Assembly: GCA_945861315.1 (NCBI GenBank)
Contig: CAMAUB010000002.1
Span: 1-22,307, forward strand
Origin: Chlamydia trachomatis
GTDB taxonomy: Bacteria; Chlamydiota; Chlamydiia; Chlamydiales; JAAKFR01
Length of the DNA stretch: 22,307 nt
Reading direction: 5' to 3'
Below the pieces are notes generated by a model, which was not told the origin of the DNA, did no database searches, and was given only the letters and a program-made list of their open reading frames with translations. Positions 1-21,124 of this stretch are shown here, piece by piece. The position numbers were made by a program, and so were the translations under genes. Each line of letters begins with the position of its first letter. The stretch's first letter is position 1.

Positions 1-364
1 TCTTTTTGTTAGCTCTGTATGTTTTGTAACTAACAAGCTACCACAAGAGGACCAATATTTTTTATTTTTTCGCGCTAACTCTCTAAAAAACCTATCTTAC
101 CATTGAATTTTGCAACCGCCTCTATATTGGGTCAGTTACGATCTATCAATCGCGAGGCTTTCACGCAGGTCAAAATTATCATTCCGAACTTAATCGACTA
201 TAAACATTTATTGAATCTTAATTTATATTCTTCTACAATCCAGTCACACCGATTCATAAAGAATTAGAAGCTTGGGCAGCTTCGCAGGAGTGCGTATCAA
301 CCTAAGTTTTGGGTTTCTCTATAGATGTTTATTCAAATAATAAAAAATTAAGGTTGGGTCAAAA
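1..364. other. Non-coding region with two decayed repeat relics
   Basis: No intact gene is visible on either strand. Two fragments can be recognised. Positions 108-128 match 19 of 21 bases of the right arm of the inverted repeat at 15931-15951. Positions about 222-305 contain an open stretch translating to HKELEAWAAS followed by a stop. This matches the N-terminal module of the LRR protein that begins at 365 (residues about 94-104, LHEELEAWAAT). The region therefore looks like the remains of an upstream paralogous gene end and a dispersed repeat. No convincing promoter for the LRR gene was found. A weak AAGG lies 11 bases before its GTG start. Confidence 0.55.
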
Positions 365-2338
365 GTGTGCAGTAATTCTGAATTTTCAATAGCAGCTTCT
401 CTAGAATTCTATCTTCATCCATTTCTTGAAGAAGTAGAAGCTTGGGTCGCGTCGGAGGATGGACATGCAACAATGGTAGCTGGGAGGATTATAAGAGCAT
501 TTCAAAATAGATCAGATAGATTGGCAAGGCAAGTAACTGCCCCTGCTGAACTGCCGCCTCAAAGGAGAGTCACATATCCTTTACCGGTTTCAAGTACAGT
601 ACCAGCATCATCCCCAAGTGCTCCCTTGCTAACAGATCGGCAGCTTCATGAAGAATTAGAAGCTTGGGCAGCAACGGAGGGTGGACGTGCAAGAGTGGCA
701 GCTGAGAGGATTAAAAGTGCATTTCAAAATAGATCGACAAGTCTAGATTTATCTTCTTTCGGATTAAAAACTCTTCCCACTGTCATTTGCAAATTCATTC
801 AGCTTCAAACACTTAACTTGTCTGAGAATCAACTGACAACCCTCCCAGCTGTTATTGGCCAGCTGCGGCAGCTTAAAAGGCTTGGCTTGGCTTCGAATCA
901 ACTGACAACTCTTCCTGCTGAAATTGGCCTGCTTGTGCAGCTTAAAAGGCTTGACTTGGATTCGAATCAACTGACAACCCTTCCTGCTGAAATTGGTCAG
1001 CTCCTGCAGCTTCAAGAGCTTGACTTGTCTTGGAATCGACTGACAACCCTCCCTGCTACAATTGGCCAGCTCCTGCAGCTTCAAGAGCTTGACTTGTCTT
1101 GGAATCAACTGACAACCCTCCCTACCGTAATTGGCCAGCTGCTACAGCTTAAAGTGCTTTGCTTGAATTCGAATCAACTGACAAGCCTTCCTGCTGAAAT
1201 TGGCCAGCTGTGGCAGCTTGAAAGGCTTCAGTTGTCTTCGAATCAACTGACAATCATCCCTGCTGAAATTGGCCAGCTGCGGCAGCTTGAATTGCTTCAC
1301 TTGAATTCGAATCAACTGACAACCCTCCCTGCTGAAATTGGCCAGCTGCGGCAGCTTGAATTGCTTGTCTTTTCTGAAAACCCAGCACTTTCTGAAATTC
1401 CTATTTCTTTTTGCAACCTGTTACATATAACATACTTAGATACTAATGAAACATCCATACCTCATACGCAGCCAGGTCTAGTCTTAACTGCAATCCAAAG
1501 ACAAAGAGGGGCAGTGGCTGTAGAACGATTACCTCCAAAGCTTAATCTATGGAAAAGCTATGCACAGATGACGGATCTCAATCTAGATATAAGTGTTTTG
1601 GATCAAGGACAAAAAGAAAGCCTTCATGAGTGGCTTGTGCGATTAGAAAGAGCTAAAGACTTTCAGCGATCTCAACGATCTTTATGCGAAACTGCATGTA
1701 GAATATTAAACACTGTTTTAGAAGATGGAACATTCAGAGAGACTTTCTTTGTCCAAGTTAGGGACAATTTAGAGGGCTGTGGAGATCGTGCAGCGATGTC
1801 CTTCAATGAAATTTATACAGCTTGGGTATTGGTCACTCTTCCGCCAGACGGGACTACCCACCGCAAACTTGAAATCTTAATAGGAGTTGCCAAGACAAAC
1901 ACCTTGCGTAGCTGTTTGCAGCAGATCATTGGTACCCATGAAAGCGAAACCAGTACGCAAGAACAAGAGAGTGTAGAAATTTATTTGTATTATGAGAGCC
2001 TTCTGCGAGAAGAGTTATCTCTTGTAAGTGCTATCCAACATATGCTCTACGCTACTATAGGTCGAAGAGATTGGATCGATATAAGTCATCTTACAAGACA
2101 AGTTATGGAATCTTATTTAGATACACTTATTCAGATTCCTGCTTTTGATGCATTAATTAAGCAAGACTCAGCTTTTATGGAGCAGTGGGTGTCAGTAGAA
2201 GATCGGTTCCAAGTGCAACTTGCAAGCTTGCCAGAAGACGTTACTAGTGAAGAGCTTTTAACTCGTTCTGTGCAGATTCAAGAAGCACGTAATCTAGAAT
2301 GGAAAACAGCAGCGATTCAATGGGCTCAAGACAGCTAA
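365..2338 (+). CDS. LRR protein with C-terminal NEL-type E3 ubiquitin ligase domain (predicted secreted effector)
   Basis: Seen: 657 residues from a GTG start; the frame is closed just upstream and the next in-frame ATG lies inside the first module. Residues 21-50 and 94-123 are two copies of an approximately 30-residue helical module (EAW...RAFQNRS), joined by a Pro/Ser-rich linker. Residues 125-147 begin the LRRs, then eight 23-residue repeats of the NQLTTLPAEIGQL type run from 148 to 331, with degenerate repeats to about 365. The C-terminal part (about 390-657) carries CGDR at 472-475 followed by AMSFNEIYTAW, and later a VEIYLYY segment. Known: this matches the NEL domain of IpaH/SspH ligases, whose catalytic Cys lies in a CxDR motif before a TWNNL-like segment. 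In those proteins the LRRs select host substrates and restrain the ligase. Inference: a type III-secreted ubiquitin ligase with Cys472 as nucleophile. No classical signal peptide is seen, as expected for such effectors. Confidence 0.82.
   Translation: MCSNSEFSIAASLEFYLHPFLEEVEAWVASEDGHATMVAGRIIRAFQNRSDRLARQVTAPAELPPQRRVTYPLPVSSTVPASSPSAPLLTDRQLHEELEAWAATEGGRARVAAERIKSAFQNRSTSLDLSSFGLKTLPTVICKFIQLQTLNLSENQLTTLPAVIGQLRQLKRLGLASNQLTTLPAEIGLLVQLKRLDLDSNQLTTLPAEIGQLLQLQELDLSWNRLTTLPATIGQLLQLQELDLSWNQLTTLPTVIGQLLQLKVLCLNSNQLTSLPAEIGQLWQLERLQLSSNQLTIIPAEIGQLRQLELLHLNSNQLTTLPAEIGQLRQLELLVFSENPALSEIPISFCNLLHITYLDTNETSIPHTQPGLVLTAIQRQRGAVAVERLPPKLNLWKSYAQMTDLNLDISVLDQGQKESLHEWLVRLERAKDFQRSQRSLCETACRILNTVLEDGTFRETFFVQVRDNLEGCGDRAAMSFNEIYTAWVLVTLPPDGTTHRKLEILIGVAKTNTLRSCLQQIIGTHESETSTQEQESVEIYLYYESLLREELSLVSAIQHMLYATIGRRDWIDISHLTRQVMESYLDTLIQIPAFDALIKQDSAFMEQWVSVEDRFQVQLASLPEDVTSEELLTRSVQIQEARNLEWKTAAIQWAQDS
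806..1357 (+). repeat. Eight tandem 69-bp LRR-encoding repeats
   Basis: Each 69-bp unit encodes one 23-residue LRR. The units are very similar at DNA level, not only in protein: segments such as AATCAACTGACAACCCT and GAAATTGGCCAGCTG recur almost unchanged. Such identity points to recent unit duplication or gene conversion, so repeat number may vary between strains. Confidence 0.9.
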
Positions 2339-7271: not shown

Positions 7272-8605
7272 TGTTCTACGATGTTCAAGATGATTACTTT
7301 TCTTTTTTACGATTTCAAACAATTGCGACAGACCCCCTATACAGCAAAGAAGTTGAAAATTGCGCCAACTGGCTTGAACTCTATCTAAGAAAGTGTGGAT
7401 TGAGTGTTGAAAAATGGAATACACGTATTGGCCCTCCAACCCTTTTTGCCTCGGACCTCTCAGCTGGACCTGATAAAGAAACCATCCTCTTATACTGCCA
7501 CTACGATGTGCAGCCTGTTGATCCACTTGATCTTTGGGACACACCGCCATTTGAGCCCAACATCCGCAACGGAAAGGTTTATGCACGTGGAGCCTCTGAT
7601 AATAAAGGGCAATGTTTCTATACAATTTGTGCATTGAAAGACTACTTAAAACACCATGGGAAATTTCCTGTGAACATCAAATTCGTTATAGAAGGCGAAG
7701 AGGAGAGCGGTAGCAGGGGGCTCTCATCACTTCTTGAACAAAAAAGAAATGAGCTCAAAGCAGATCATCTACTTGTAGTCGACAGTTCAATCGATAACAT
7801 TGAAGATCCCTTTATCACACTTGGAGCACGTGGAATTGTTGGTGTTGAGCTCACCATTGAAGAAGCTCCCTATGATCTACATTCAGGCCTTTTTGGAGGC
7901 ATTGCATACAACCCAAACCGCGCTCTTGTTGAACTACTCTCCTTGCTGCACGATTCAACAGGCACTGTGGCAATTGCAGGGTTTTATGATGAAGTAATTG
8001 GGCCAACTCCTCAAGAGCTTTCTGAACTTTCAATGGATTTTGATGAAAAGACTTTTATTGAGTCTTATGGTTTTCGCCCAACAGGGATGGAAGATGGCTT
8101 AAATCCCATTGAAGCAAACTGGTTTCGTCCAACCCTAGAAATCAATGGAATTGCAGGCGGTTATGCTGGAGTGGGATTTAAGACTGTTATTCCTTCCAAG
8201 GCAGTTGCAAAAATCTCTTGCCGCTTAGTTCCTCAGCAAACTCCTGAACGAATTATCTCTTTGCTTAAAGAGTTTCTCTTGGCAAAAGCACCTAAAGGAC
8301 TCAAAGTCACAATCGAATCTATTCAAGGATCAGGAAAAGGCTTTCGTCACTCTGCTCACTCCCGTATTGCCAAAATCATGACACAAAGCTATAGCGATGT
8401 CTTTCAAAAGCCGTGTAAGAAAATTCTCATTGGCGCTTCTGTTCCAATCACCCCCGCCTTAATGGATGCCTCAAAGGCTGAGGGAATTTTAATTGGTACC
8501 GCGCTCAATACAGACCTTATCCATTCGCCTAACGAACATTTTTCTATTGAGTCATTTGAGAAGGGATACAACACTATTTACCGAATGCTTGAATTATTCG
8601 CCTAA
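7271..8605 (+). CDS. M20 family metallopeptidase (dipeptidase/CPG2-like)
   Basis: 444 residues with the M20 di-zinc site: His77 and Asp79 in CHYDVQPVDP, bridging Asp110 in GASDNKGQ, general base and ligand in EGEEESGS (141-148), Asp171 in VVDSS, and His418 in IHSPNEHF near the C-terminus. The Trp-Asp-TPPFEP and GRGASD-like segments match the subfamily of cytosolic dipeptidases and carnosinase-like enzymes rather than DapE or ArgE. The dimerisation domain would lie at about residues 190-310. It starts one base inside the M16C stop, so the two are translationally coupled. The pairing suggests stepwise peptide breakdown, oligopeptides by M16C and then dipeptides by M20. Substrate preference is an inference. 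Confidence 0.9.
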   Translation: MFYDVQDDYFSFLRFQTIATDPLYSKEVENCANWLELYLRKCGLSVEKWNTRIGPPTLFASDLSAGPDKETILLYCHYDVQPVDPLDLWDTPPFEPNIRNGKVYARGASDNKGQCFYTICALKDYLKHHGKFPVNIKFVIEGEEESGSRGLSSLLEQKRNELKADHLLVVDSSIDNIEDPFITLGARGIVGVELTIEEAPYDLHSGLFGGIAYNPNRALVELLSLLHDSTGTVAIAGFYDEVIGPTPQELSELSMDFDEKTFIESYGFRPTGMEDGLNPIEANWFRPTLEINGIAGGYAGVGFKTVIPSKAVAKISCRLVPQQTPERIISLLKEFLLAKAPKGLKVTIESIQGSGKGFRHSAHSRIAKIMTQSYSDVFQKPCKKILIGASVPITPALMDASKAEGILIGTALNTDLIHSPNEHFSIESFEKGYNTIYRMLELFA

Positions 8606-10571: not shown

Positions 10572-12245
10572 ATGACGGCACTTCCCATTAATATTGATGA
10601 GTTACTAAGGGGACAGATTGTTGAATGGGAACGTCTTGAGTTCAAAAAAGGATGGAATCCTGAAGAAATCATTCACACCATTTGCGCTTTTGCAAACGAC
10701 ATCAACAATTGGGGTGGGGGCTATTTAATAGTAGGAATAGAGGAGGACAAAGGGCAACTGCTTTTTCCTCCAATCGGCTTATCAGCCAATAAAATTGACG
10801 CAATTCAAAAAGAACTAGTCAACTTGAGTTACAGGCTACGTCCCAACTATCATCCAATAGTTGCACCTGTCGTTTTTCAAGAAAAAATGATCTTGTTAAT
10901 CTGGTGTCCTGGTGGTCAAACAAGACCCTATCAAGCGCCTGATACATTAGGTAAGAATGCAGCTTATTCATATTTTATAAGGCGCAATTCTACAACTATA
11001 AAGAGTCAGACAAAAGATATTCAGCGACTTCATGAGATGGCAAATCAAGTGCCATTCGACGATCGAATCCGCCATCAAGCTGACCTGAAAGATCTACAGT
11101 TGGGTATTATTAAAGACTTCCTAAGAGACGTTAAAAGTGATCTTGTAACTGAATCTGACAAAATTCCTTTCGAACAACTCTGCCGACAAATGCAACTCAT
11201 TCAAGGCCCTGAGGAGTACCTGAAGCCATTGAACATTGGTTTAATGATGTTCAATAGTAATCCCGAACAATTTTTCCCTTACGCTCGAATTGAAATCGTT
11301 GATTTTCACGACGAAGTGGGTGATAGTTTTTCTGAAAAGATCTTTAAAGGACCTATCCATACTCAACTTAAAGAGGCTTTGAGATACCTTCAATCGATGT
11401 TTATCAAGGAAGAGATTCGCAAGAGACCTGATCGCGCTGAAGCTGATCGTTTTTACAACTATCCATACGTTGCACTAAAGGAGGCTTTAGCTAATGCAGT
11501 CTACCACAAAGACTATGCCCAAAGGGAACCGATCGAAATCAGCATCAAACCAGATCGGATAGAAATTCTGTCATTCCCAGGTCCCTTACCTCCCTTAAAG
11601 ATAGAAGATTTGAACAAGGGATCTGCTCGAGTTCGAACTTATAGAAATAGAAGAATAGGAGACTTTCTCAAAGAGCTTCATCTAACGGAAGGGCGTTGTA
11701 CTGGGGTGCCAAAAATTCATAAAGCTATGGAGGCAAATGGCTCACCTCCTGCTATTTTTGAAACCGACCTAGAATGCCACTACTTTCTCACTATCTTACC
11801 TATTCATCCCGAAGCAACAAGAAAAACAACAACTGCCAATCAAAATCTACTCATGGAGGAGCAAACACACCGGTATACCGGTGTGTCTGACGTCGAAACA
11901 CACCGGTATACGGGTGTGTCTGGCGTCGAAACACACCCGTATACCGGTGTGTTTCCAATTGAAACGCTCCCAAAAGCCCTGCAGATATTGATTAATAATC
12001 TTAATCTACGCTCCAGTAAAAAAGACTTACGTTCAGCGATTCAAAAACTTTGTGCATGGAAGCCATTAACGGCGCAGCAATTAGTAGAGATCCTGAAAAA
12101 AAAGGATAAAAAACACTTTGTCAGGGGCCATCTTACGCCAATGGTTAAAGAAGGGATGCTAAAATACTTATTTCCCGAAGATGAAGACTCTCCTAATCAA
12201 GCATATATCTGTGAAAAAGGAGATGGTGATGAAGGCTCTAAATAA
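10572..12245 (+). CDS. AlbA_2 (Schlafen-like)/RecG-type ATP-binding transcriptional regulator-like protein
   Basis: 557 residues. The N-terminal part (about 10-150) is an AlbA_2 domain with EFKKG at 23-27 and the INNWGGGYLIVGIEE segment (45-58). A linker follows, then a HATPase_c_4 domain with the N-box EALANAVYHKDY at 304-315 and the FPGPLPP segment. This architecture is widespread and often misannotated as 'RecG helicase', but no helicase motifs are present. Residues 432-464 are three in-frame 11-residue repeats (THRYTGVSDVE-like), each starting with a 22-bp DNA palindrome. Residues about 480-545 look like a winged helix. Proposed role: DNA- or RNA-binding regulator; in some genomes the family sits in defence islands, but nothing here proves that. 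AAGG at 10561-10564 precedes the ATG by 7 bases. Confidence 0.82.
   Translation: MTALPINIDELLRGQIVEWERLEFKKGWNPEEIIHTICAFANDINNWGGGYLIVGIEEDKGQLLFPPIGLSANKIDAIQKELVNLSYRLRPNYHPIVAPVVFQEKMILLIWCPGGQTRPYQAPDTLGKNAAYSYFIRRNSTTIKSQTKDIQRLHEMANQVPFDDRIRHQADLKDLQLGIIKDFLRDVKSDLVTESDKIPFEQLCRQMQLIQGPEEYLKPLNIGLMMFNSNPEQFFPYARIEIVDFHDEVGDSFSEKIFKGPIHTQLKEALRYLQSMFIKEEIRKRPDRAEADRFYNYPYVALKEALANAVYHKDYAQREPIEISIKPDRIEILSFPGPLPPLKIEDLNKGSARVRTYRNRRIGDFLKELHLTEGRCTGVPKIHKAMEANGSPPAIFETDLECHYFLTILPIHPEATRKTTTANQNLLMEEQTHRYTGVSDVETHRYTGVSGVETHPYTGVFPIETLPKALQILINNLNLRSSKKDLRSAIQKLCAWKPLTAQQLVEILKKKDKKHFVRGHLTPMVKEGMLKYLFPEDEDSPNQAYICEKGDGDEGSK
11865..11952. repeat. Three 22-bp palindromes at 33-bp spacing inside the AlbA_2 gene
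   Basis: The palindromes occupy 11865-11886, 11898-11919 and 11931-11952, separated by 11-bp spacers (CTGACGTCGAA, CTGGCGTCGAA). The first is perfect, with half-site ACACACCGGTA. The second and third each carry one change and are exact reverse complements of each other. All lie in the same codon phase and encode THRYTGV, THRYTGV and THPYTGV, in the linker between the ATPase domain and the winged helix. Confidence 0.95.
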
Positions 12246-12660: not shown

Positions 12661-14514
12661 TCACACGATCGTTTTACGAGCTTGCAAAATCTGCGTTGAT
12701 AGGCCAAGAGCATGATAGATTTCTCGTTGCTGTCCTTCCGCCTGGGTAGTACTGCGATAATACAGAGTTCGACCATCTTTCATCTTTGCGCTCATTGTCA
12801 CCCTGGTTCGAGATCTTAATGTGTTGCGTATTGTCTCCCAATGGTGATGGATGCCTCTTGTTTTCAGCTGGTACAGGCACTGTTGCAATAAGTGATAGGC
12901 CATGACCGTAATCCAAAGATGGCCATCTACTCGACTTTCTTTCTGATGATAAACTGGACGAAGTCCAAGAGATGATTTCATAAATCGAAAGGCGTCTTCG
13001 ATTCTTCGCAACGTATTGTACAGTTGCCACAGTTCTTTTGCTTCGAAATGGACTAAATTGGTTCTCAGAAAGTAGCTCCCAGTAAGTTTATCTGTAAGCT
13101 TTTCTGGAATAGGGTGCCATTCAATAGCTGTGGCGGTTTTGCCATCCTCTGATGCGGTCACCGCAATTTCATAGCATCCTGCGATTTTTTTGTGTTTTTC
13201 TTTTAATCGTCCGACACGCTCTATAATCTTGACGTATTTCTTTCTCCCTTTCGGTTTTAAAAGGCCGGCTGCCAGTTTTGTCAAATCTTCTTCAAAACGG
13301 ATCTGAAAGGATTGTTTCATTTGTGTAGCAACGGCAATCTTTGCCTCAGATTCGCAATACAGCCATTTCTCATCACTTTCAGGAGGACTTTTGATCAGAG
13401 CGGCTTTTACTTGATCCAAGGCATCTTCTACAGCGATCAACTCCCCTTCAAGTTCCAGCGTTGGAGCATGTTGCCGTGCGGATACAATATATGAATATCC
13501 ATTTTGTCTCAGCCAGGCTAGATTTTCTTCTGACGAAATCCCAGCGTCTAGCACGATCGTTGGTTTGAGTAGATCGTTATGCGCACTCAATTTCTGAATC
13601 ATTTCTTGGAGAGTTTGTGGTTCAGTAGCATTTCCAGGTAGCATGGAGGTTCTCAGTAAAAAACCCTCTTCATTTATGACAAGTCCCATGGTAATGAGCT
13701 TGCAATCGCGGCGCTTTTCTTTGGACACCCCAAAACACGCCTTTTTATTAGCTTTAGCCTGACCCTCCATGTACACATTTGTTAAATCATAAAGAGCAAT
13801 GGTTGACCTATATCCATGAAATTTCTGCTCAATTTTTTCAAAATGACATTCCAAATCATATTTGTTTTTGTATAATAGATCGCTAATTTTATACATTTTA
13901 TTAAGCGAGGATTGCTTGAAATCATAATTTAAAAGCTCTCCAAGACCGCTCTCATCGCATAACCAAGTATAGGTAGCTCGCTCACTTGCAGGATTGACTG
14001 CTCTTGCAATCACAGATCCCATAGCTGTCGCTGTTTCTGTCTCAGATAAACCAAGTTTTTTGAGCTGTTTAGGAAGCTCTAGCTGTTCAGCCATCTGTAA
14101 CATCAAATGTTCTGCTCCTACAGATCGAGGCTCTGACGTGGCAATCGAATGCACGTCAATGTCCACAAATTCCTGAGGGATTGCCTTGTTGTCATTGGAT
14201 AGAGGTTGCTTCACAGAGAGTTGTTTTACTAACTGCGAAGCATAGTGTTGGGCATACCGCTCGATTTTTTCTGGACATGTCATGAGTGATTGAATGCCTT
14301 TGAGGATCTCTTCAGTGCGATTTGCAAGTAGCTTGCGCTCTTCATCATTCACGTCGAGATGAGCTCCGAGGTTCAAGAGGATGCGTTGTCTAGGTCCTCT
14401 TTCGGTGCGCACAGACTCAATCAGTTGAAAGTTGTAATAGACGGCTTTTGTCTTCGGATTAACAAGGCGTGTTTTTCTGATAAACATGGCCGCTATTGTT
14501 GCCAAGGCTTCCAT
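12661..14514 (-). CDS. IS4-superfamily (IS1634-like) transposase
   Basis: 617 residues and apparently intact. The N-terminus (FIRKTR...YYNFQLIESVRTERGPRQRILLNLG) is typical of IS1634-like transposases, many of which start at a Met equivalent to residue 10 here (14485-14487); either start is possible. The DDE catalytic residues are probably Asp243 (YDLTNVYMEG), Asp323 (IVLDAGISSEENL) and Glu506 in YNTLRRIEDAFRFMK, an IS4-type YREK-like signature. A large beta-strand insertion lies between the second Asp and the Glu, as in the family. No frameshift or internal stop is present, so the element may still be active unless the interrupted left TIR prevents it. There is no obvious Shine-Dalgarno. The gene runs opposite to the disrupted NUDIX gene. 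Confidence 0.93.
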   Translation of the reverse strand: MEALATIAAMFIRKTRLVNPKTKAVYYNFQLIESVRTERGPRQRILLNLGAHLDVNDEERKLLANRTEEILKGIQSLMTCPEKIERYAQHYASQLVKQLSVKQPLSNDNKAIPQEFVDIDVHSIATSEPRSVGAEHLMLQMAEQLELPKQLKKLGLSETETATAMGSVIARAVNPASERATYTWLCDESGLGELLNYDFKQSSLNKMYKISDLLYKNKYDLECHFEKIEQKFHGYRSTIALYDLTNVYMEGQAKANKKACFGVSKEKRRDCKLITMGLVINEEGFLLRTSMLPGNATEPQTLQEMIQKLSAHNDLLKPTIVLDAGISSEENLAWLRQNGYSYIVSARQHAPTLELEGELIAVEDALDQVKAALIKSPPESDEKWLYCESEAKIAVATQMKQSFQIRFEEDLTKLAAGLLKPKGRKKYVKIIERVGRLKEKHKKIAGCYEIAVTASEDGKTATAIEWHPIPEKLTDKLTGSYFLRTNLVHFEAKELWQLYNTLRRIEDAFRFMKSSLGLRPVYHQKESRVDGHLWITVMAYHLLQQCLYQLKTRGIHHHWETIRNTLRSRTRVTMSAKMKDGRTLYYRSTTQAEGQQREIYHALGLSTQILQARKTIV

Positions 14515-20263: not shown

Positions 20264-21124
20264 ATGTTTAAATATCTAGGTAATCAGCTCCGAAACCTGT
20301 TCAAGGGAAAAGTTAATGAAGAGATGCTCGACAGAGTAGAAGAGCTCTTTTTTGAGGCTGACCTTGGCGCCCGTACCTCCGAAGAGCTTACGGAGAGTGT
20401 GCGCAAACTTTATAAAAAGAATTCAAAAATTTCTTATACAGATATCATTTCAGAAATCAAAAAGCAACTTATCGAGAAGATTGGGGTGCAAGAAAAACCA
20501 CCCCAAATGGGCTCTCCTCATGTCATCCTTATTGTTGGGGTGAATGGGAATGGAAAGACTACTACTATCGCCAAGCTAGCCCATCGCTACCGACAAGAGG
20601 GCAAATCAGTCCTTATTGCAGCGGCTGACACCTTCCGAGCAGCAGCTATTGATCAGCTTGAGCTTTGGGCCTCTCGCCTTGGAGTTGACATCGTCAAGGG
20701 AGCGCCAGGCAGTGATCCAGCTTCCGTCGCTTTTGATGCAATTACAGCCGCTAAAAGCCGCGGTATTGACATTGTCCTAATTGACACAGCAGGCCGCCTA
20801 CACACCAAACAAGATCTCATGCAAGAGCTTGAGAAGGTGCGCCGCGTATGTAACAAGGCTCAAGAGGGCTCTCCCCATGAGACGCTGCTAGTTCTTGATG
20901 CCACTGTTGGACAAAACGGGATAGAGCAGGCCACCACCTTCCACAAGTTCACTCCCCTTTCAGGGCTTATTCTTACTAAGCTTGATGGAACGGCTAAGGG
21001 TGGAACAGCCATCGCCATCCAAAACAAACTGCAACTGCCTATTCGCTTCATTGGCATGGGCGAGTCTGCGGCTGACCTCAAGCCTTTCCATCCAGAGCAA
21101 TTTGTCAATGATCTTTTTAGCTAA
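20264..21124 (+). CDS. ftsY: Signal recognition particle receptor FtsY
   Basis: 286 residues, essentially only the N and G domains; the acidic A domain of E. coli FtsY is absent, as in other compact FtsYs. The N domain spans about 10-75. The GTPase motifs are GVNGNGKTTT (92-101), DTFRAAA (122-128), DTAGRLH (174-180), TKLDGTAKGG (238-247) and the closing GMGESAADLKPF (264-275). It docks the SRP-ribosome complex at the inner membrane by pairing its GTPase with Ffh. The N-terminal helix MFKYLGNQLRNLFKG is amphipathic and could serve for lipid contact. It has its own promoter in the short gap to sucC. A weak terminator follows. Confidence 0.97.
   Translation: MFKYLGNQLRNLFKGKVNEEMLDRVEELFFEADLGARTSEELTESVRKLYKKNSKISYTDIISEIKKQLIEKIGVQEKPPQMGSPHVILIVGVNGNGKTTTIAKLAHRYRQEGKSVLIAAADTFRAAAIDQLELWASRLGVDIVKGAPGSDPASVAFDAITAAKSRGIDIVLIDTAGRLHTKQDLMQELEKVRRVCNKAQEGSPHETLLVLDATVGQNGIEQATTFHKFTPLSGLILTKLDGTAKGGTAIAIQNKLQLPIRFIGMGESAADLKPFHPEQFVNDLFS

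Follow-up and report, generated by a model that had tools for sequence, protein, structure and literature searches.

The window examined here, a 22,307-nucleotide stretch of Chlamydiota DNA taken as a whole, contains three 22-bp palindromes that share one codon phase inside a single gene, which raises the question of whether their symmetry serves the DNA, serves the encoded peptide or stems from the way in which the repeat mutates. The array is located in the linker that joins the ATPase-like domain of the host protein to its C-terminal domain, and the 33-bp unit of the array is palindromic in DNA (Table 1).

Table 1. Features of the palindrome array and its host gene (window positions, or residues of the encoded protein).
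Feature	Position	Strand	Description
Host gene, 557 aa	10572..12245	+	ORF; SLFN_AlbA_2/HATPase_c_4 protein of Chlamydiota bacterium
SLFN_AlbA_2 domain	res. 18-143		Pfam 57.1 bits, gathering score 25.3
HATPase_c_4 domain	res. 320-399		Pfam 48 bits, gathering score 26
Repeat linker	about res. 412-466		before the C-terminal stretch
Fic-like_C-like C-terminal stretch	res. 497-545		22.5 bits, below Pfam gathering score 27
Palindrome copy 1	11865..11886	.	perfect, 11/11 pairs; codes THRYTGV
Spacer 1, 11 bp	11887..11897	+	
Palindrome copy 2	11898..11919	.	10/11 pairs; codes THRYTGV; exact reverse complement of copy 3
Spacer 2, 11 bp	11920..11930	+	
Palindrome copy 3	11931..11952	.	10/11 pairs; codes THPYTGV
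Copies 2 and 3 jointly	11895..11955	+	predicted perfect 25-bp stem with 11-nt loop

Palindromes of the window and their host protein

The initial annotation had described palindromes kept in one codon phase at 33-bp spacing, and this was confirmed by spacings of 33 and 33 bp and by the reading ACA CAC CNG TAT ACN GGT GTG T, in identical phase, of all three copies. Pair counts likewise agreed with its statement that the first copy is perfect and the other two are mutual reverse complements: copies 2 and 3 have one unpaired position apiece, and copy 3 differs from copy 2 at two positions when compared directly and at none when inverted. The 11-bp spacers CTGACGTCGAA and CTGGCGTCGAA, which had been called similar, are indeed one base apart. 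Throughout the window, only three 22-mers had no more than one of their 11 pairs unmatched, all of them palindrome copies, and 40 first-order Markov shuffles of the window yielded a mean of 0.15 such 22-mers (maximum 1). The RNA spanning 11856-11966 has a predicted fold of -65.8 kcal/mol (z -10.4), which none of 200 shuffles equalled.

Both Pfam domains of the host protein score above their gathering scores, placing it in the SLFN_AlbA_2 plus HATPase_c_4 family, several relatives of which are named 'ATP-dependent DNA helicase RecG' in one source. The closest match found among genome contigs (L001, 93% identity) belongs to a 'Chlamydiae bacterium' MAG. Because the AlphaFold model of the host protein has a low pLDDT (mean 48.1, with 351 of the 557 residues below 50), no conclusion was drawn from it. 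Elsewhere in the window, a leucine-rich-repeat protein with a NEL E3-ligase domain match is encoded at 365-2338 (+), its gene containing a 69-bp LRR repeat that spans positions 800 to 1375, and a DDE transposase gene (12661-14514, -) lies downstream of the host gene on the opposite strand.

Repeat units in homologous linkers

A homologue search returned 5263 proteins, and among the best 120 of these, which were examined, 27 contained TH...GV units at 1-4 per protein (one unit in 6 proteins, two in 15, three in 5 and four in 1). Other relatives carry different units in the same linker, such as 15 T[HY]QL/I-type units of 7 residues (21 bp) in P0041 and six THRF/LTDN units of the same 7 residues (21 bp) in P0016, and L118 has units of both 7 and 11 residues. 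In more distant relatives, the short linker repeats are unrelated, VEAQVEAQ being one example. Among homologues of the host protein, variation in repeat length is the rule, and the varying copy number bears out the earlier proposal that a palindromic unit had multiplied within a coding region. The array would have been regarded as a local accident had there been neither further copies nor length variation among homologues; both were found, so it is not one.

Whether palindromic linkers are a general trait of the family was examined in 42 linkers parsed from 81 loci (the window and L001-L080), each compared with 200 synonymous shuffles. This general form of the idea was rejected, with only five of the 42 reaching p <=0.01 (L004, the window, L017, L002 and L059), of which L017 and L059 are non-chlamydial. 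The longest perfect short-loop arm, counting loops of <=4 nt, was not above synonymous shuffles in L001, L003, L005 and L014 (p 0.28-0.75). An extra half-site, AAACACACCGGTA, was observed at 4272-4284 of L003, 20 bp ahead of the first unit and in a different frame (NTPV).

Inverted neighbours and wobble bases

Neighbouring units were compared in 12 arrays comprising 31 units and 19 pairs, with L117, L203 and L204 excluded as having one or only decayed units; the units of L118 in this comparison are partly separated by 7-residue units. Exact but non-identical reverse-complement neighbours were found in five of the 19 pairs (copies 2 and 3 of the window, L113, L116, L114 and L115), so that the local inversion suggested in the initial annotation is supported by five of 12 arrays. 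Four further pairs, one of them fully symmetric (L004), consist of units that are the same when read in one direction, the outcome expected of plain duplication. If the 8-bp cores had diverged by independent substitutions, the chance per pair of an exact inverted match would be 0.016 for two differences, 0.001 for four and 0.0002 for six; the five inverted pairs have chances of 0.016, 0.016, 0.016, 0.001 and 0.0002, which are not independent because the window and L116, as well as L114 and L115, may share history. An inverted core or homogenised arms, as expected of template-switch mutation, are present relative to the neighbouring unit in these five of 19 pairs. Between L114 and L115, both extragenic, each unit differs by one base, at mirrored positions.

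Reverse-complement units also account for the peptide variants THPYTGV/THRYTGV and THRLPGV/THRVAGV, the latter two standing side by side in L113, where inversion alters two residues (RLPG, RVAG). Most TAT-centred units remain open when inverted, and TCT or TTT centres become a stop. No inverted pair was found in L005 and L118, the arrays with TCT or TTT centres, although numbers are small and L118 also has TAT-centred units able to show inversion, none of them inverted. Altogether, exact inversion was absent from six coding arrays (L001, L002, L003, L005, L014 and L118).

These comparisons lead us to consider it probable, with moderate confidence, that the array is a coding minisatellite that has grown by slippage and has been reshaped by replication template switching. 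Slippage would multiply the units, and template switching at the hairpin during replication would flip the 8-bp core between the 7-bp arms and would also re-copy one arm from its partner arm. In the register of the unit, third codon positions 3, 6, 18 and 21 pair with second codon positions 20, 17, 5 and 2. Because the third positions of the TH and GV codons thereby pair with second positions of the opposite arm, an inverted unit would still start with TH and end with GV, and it would stay open if its centre is TAT.

Template switching of this kind is documented for yeast coding DNA, where arm homogenisation and spacer inversion occur (PMC8604942), and for rRNA genes, where loop inversions reach up to 7-8 nt (PMC8794818). 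Those quasipalindrome mutations share with the chlamydial units the homogenisation of arms, the inversion of a short spacer and the joint change of several adjacent bases. They differ from the present case, in which a bacterial tandem coding unit forms the inverted repeat and its inversion keeps frame and ends. In the yeast study, spacer inversions are described only with arms of >9 bp, and the conserved arms of the chlamydial unit, at 7-9 bp, are shorter (PMC8604942).

The wobble bases of the unit were compared in 13 genes, ten of which have GV units and five of which (L008, L014, L113, L116 and L118) are partial. TH was encoded as ACACAC in 40 of 45 units from these 13 genes, the exceptions being ACCCAC in four, all from L006, and ACACAT in one, from L118. 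Counting units with a TH...GV peptide, which excludes an L005 unit ending in DI, GV was encoded as GGTGTG in 26 of 26. Outside the linker, ACA provides 67 of 198 Thr codons, CAC 50 of 150 His, GGT 70 of 278 Gly and GTG 26 of 266 Val, and fourfold sites have a mean identity of 0.39 over 75 gene pairs, three more among the 78 having too few sites. If lineages and sites are assumed to be independent, agreement of all three of L005, L118 and L113 with the window at every one of the four wobbles has a probability of about 2e-5, as estimated from codon identities of 45/101 (L005), 25/67 (L118) and 9/32 (L113) at fourfold-type residues.

Since the wobbles pair with second codon positions, an arm-pairing process ties each of them to a protein-changing base, and this pairing combined with selection on the peptide would lock the wobble bases. 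Judged from the sequences, the pairing register could account for the wobble freeze without a regulatory site, short of proof. Across the 31 units, the outer seven arm pairs were matched in 213 of 217 cells. Pair 8-15, which adjoins the conserved part of the arm, was matched in only 9 of the 31 units and was C-C in 16, indicating that any arm correction is incomplete.

The same freeze could also arise if the palindrome were selected as a nucleic-acid site, either as a dimer-bound operator, perhaps recognized by this very protein, or as an mRNA hairpin tuning translation or decay, with the frozen arms as half-sites and the variable 8-bp core as spacer. Dimer binding sites look like conserved dyads, and the conserved dyad seen here fits such a site, as do the frozen synonymous sites of the arms next to a variable core and the strength of the predicted hairpin (z -10.4). 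However, no half-site pair lies near the gene start: the only ACACACC sites of the window are at 7539, in the three copies and at 20800, and GGTGTGT is confined to the three copies. Relatives with 7-residue units (L006-L008) moreover lack the GGTGTGT arm in their linkers, and selection for pairing alone predicts no exact reverse-complement neighbours that include the mismatches. We regard selection for a nucleic-acid site as less likely than template switching, though a serious rival to it.

It is more doubtful still that the unit is a true in-gene recombination or inversion site. Such a site would consist of the frozen 7-9 bp arms and a variable, reversible 8-bp core; the extragenic copies would lie at the joint of one flank with four different sequences (L114, L115, L117 and L203), and inversion would switch a protein hinge (THPYTGV/THRYTGV, THRLPGV/THRVAGV) far faster than point mutation. 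In intragenic invertons, inversion between in-gene inverted repeats changes the protein, and the segments are longer and recombinase-flipped. The chlamydial case, in contrast, involves an 8-bp core and no known recombinase.

Distribution across genomes and extragenic copies

A pattern scan detected ACACACC-N8-GGTGTGT in ten of 232 Chlamydiota genomes, at no more than two loci per genome, and the reversed control pattern in none of the 232. Matches fell within the host gene in nine genes read (L001-L005, L014, L113 of G042, L116 of G092 and L118 of G082), and in the genes read the array occupies one homologous place. Additional exact-pattern loci were found in G090 (L114), G092 (L115) and G003 (L117), and degenerate forms in G142 (L203) and G002 (L204). 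Allowing two mismatches in the 13 relevant genomes added 19 places, fewer than the 45 gained by the reversed control pattern. Genuine degenerate copies account for two of these 19 additions, G002:C66 and another within the G082 array. In viral contigs, 62 stretches had one site apiece, which was judged to be chance level without a computed expectation. Beyond the host gene and these few extra loci, pattern scans of the 232 Chlamydiota genomes and the viral contigs revealed no arrays, and the 80 plasmid records with a relative were every one <60% identical.

Among the extragenic copies, L117 runs on into the 3' half of the host gene, now decayed and interrupted by stops, with 90% identity to the window across 304 bases, and its sequence marks it as a certain host-gene remnant. 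In L114, L115, L203 and L204, DNA similarity ends with the palindrome units. A remnant origin, certain for L117 only, may therefore hold for the other four copies too. The palindromes of L114, L115, L117 and L203 may be gene remnants or independent joints.

L114, L117, L203 and L204 sit upstream of an ATPase gene with 95-100% identity to the L203 copy; L115 has part of this upstream flank and lacks that ATPase. A similar flank, at 2780-2862 of L114, 1264-1342 of L117, 2498-2575 of L203 and 2420-2503 of L115, stops at the palindrome, and each locus has a different sequence beyond it, amounting to a repeated breakpoint. The host frame of L116 enters an unrelated protein that is also present in L115 (95% over 437 bases); both loci belong to G092, where they represent a rearranged or mixed assembly. 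Upstream stretches of the chlamydial AAA-type ATPase gene (L205-L234, n=30) in many cases contain 2-3 tandem inverted repeats ahead of the start, often about 57 bp apart (by eye, uncounted). Their arms vary by lineage and are still complementary (TCAACAAA/TTTGTTGA, GCAGCAAA/TTTGCTGC, TCCGCAAA/TTTGCGGA, CTACCACC/GGTGGTAG), so that they look like a diversifying operator.

Rickettsia palindromic elements are dispersed in assorted genes, and the initial annotation had likened the unit to such an element, which, being small and mobile, would have inserted in-frame here and elsewhere. The extragenic copies L114 and L115, the decayed copies in L203 and L204, and the flank that L114, L115, L117 and L203 share up to the palindrome before their far sides diverge would be in keeping with this. 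Yet the likeness did not hold up, given the few genomes and loci with the exact motif, the shortfall of two-mismatch additions against the control, the single homologous place of the array in the genes read, the continuation of L117 into the decayed host gene and the isolated viral sites. At the sensitivity used, the scans speak against a widely dispersed element, and we consider a mobile origin improbable. That the repeat is selected as a peptide alone, its palindrome being a coincidence of THxYTGV codons, is very improbable: TH-x repeats (THQLExx) in the same linker of relatives without palindromes, and short linker repeats in this family across several phyla, fit it, but codon choice is frozen despite strong synonymous divergence elsewhere and neighbours that are reverse complements differ in the peptide they encode (RLPG, RVAG).

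Relation to known palindromic repeats

With template switching in a slippage-grown minisatellite as the favoured reading, the array can be set beside known coding palindromes. The palindromic amphipathic repeat coding elements (PARCEL) also form tandem protein repeats from palindromic DNA, with neighbours that pair into longer stems, and their description gives units of 25 residues (75 nt) that are amphipathic, occur in many ORFs and are thought to have spread horizontally (PMC2996958). The chlamydial unit is likewise a tandem coding repeat with dyad symmetry, but it has 11 residues (33 bp), belongs to one gene family and, within the sensitivity of the scans, showed no spread. It resembles Rickettsia palindromic elements, which the same text also mentions (PMC2996958), in placing palindromic DNA in-frame within a bacterial gene; unlike them, the chlamydial unit is not dispersed over numerous unrelated genes or intergenic positions of a genome.

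Coding palindromic tandem repeats (PMC2996958) and template switching are both already known. Among the titles and abstracts of the open-licence papers searched, none was found to describe this repeat or any in-frame unit whose codon phase lets its ends survive inversion. The array offers a natural example of micro-inversion that is legible from adjacent units and that codon phase renders harmless, and it provides a means of telling mutational mechanism and selection apart in palindromic coding DNA. It also serves as a warning that frozen synonymous sites may stem from DNA pairing and not from regulation. If the sites also recombine, they would constitute a novel, inversion-proof kind of coding switch.
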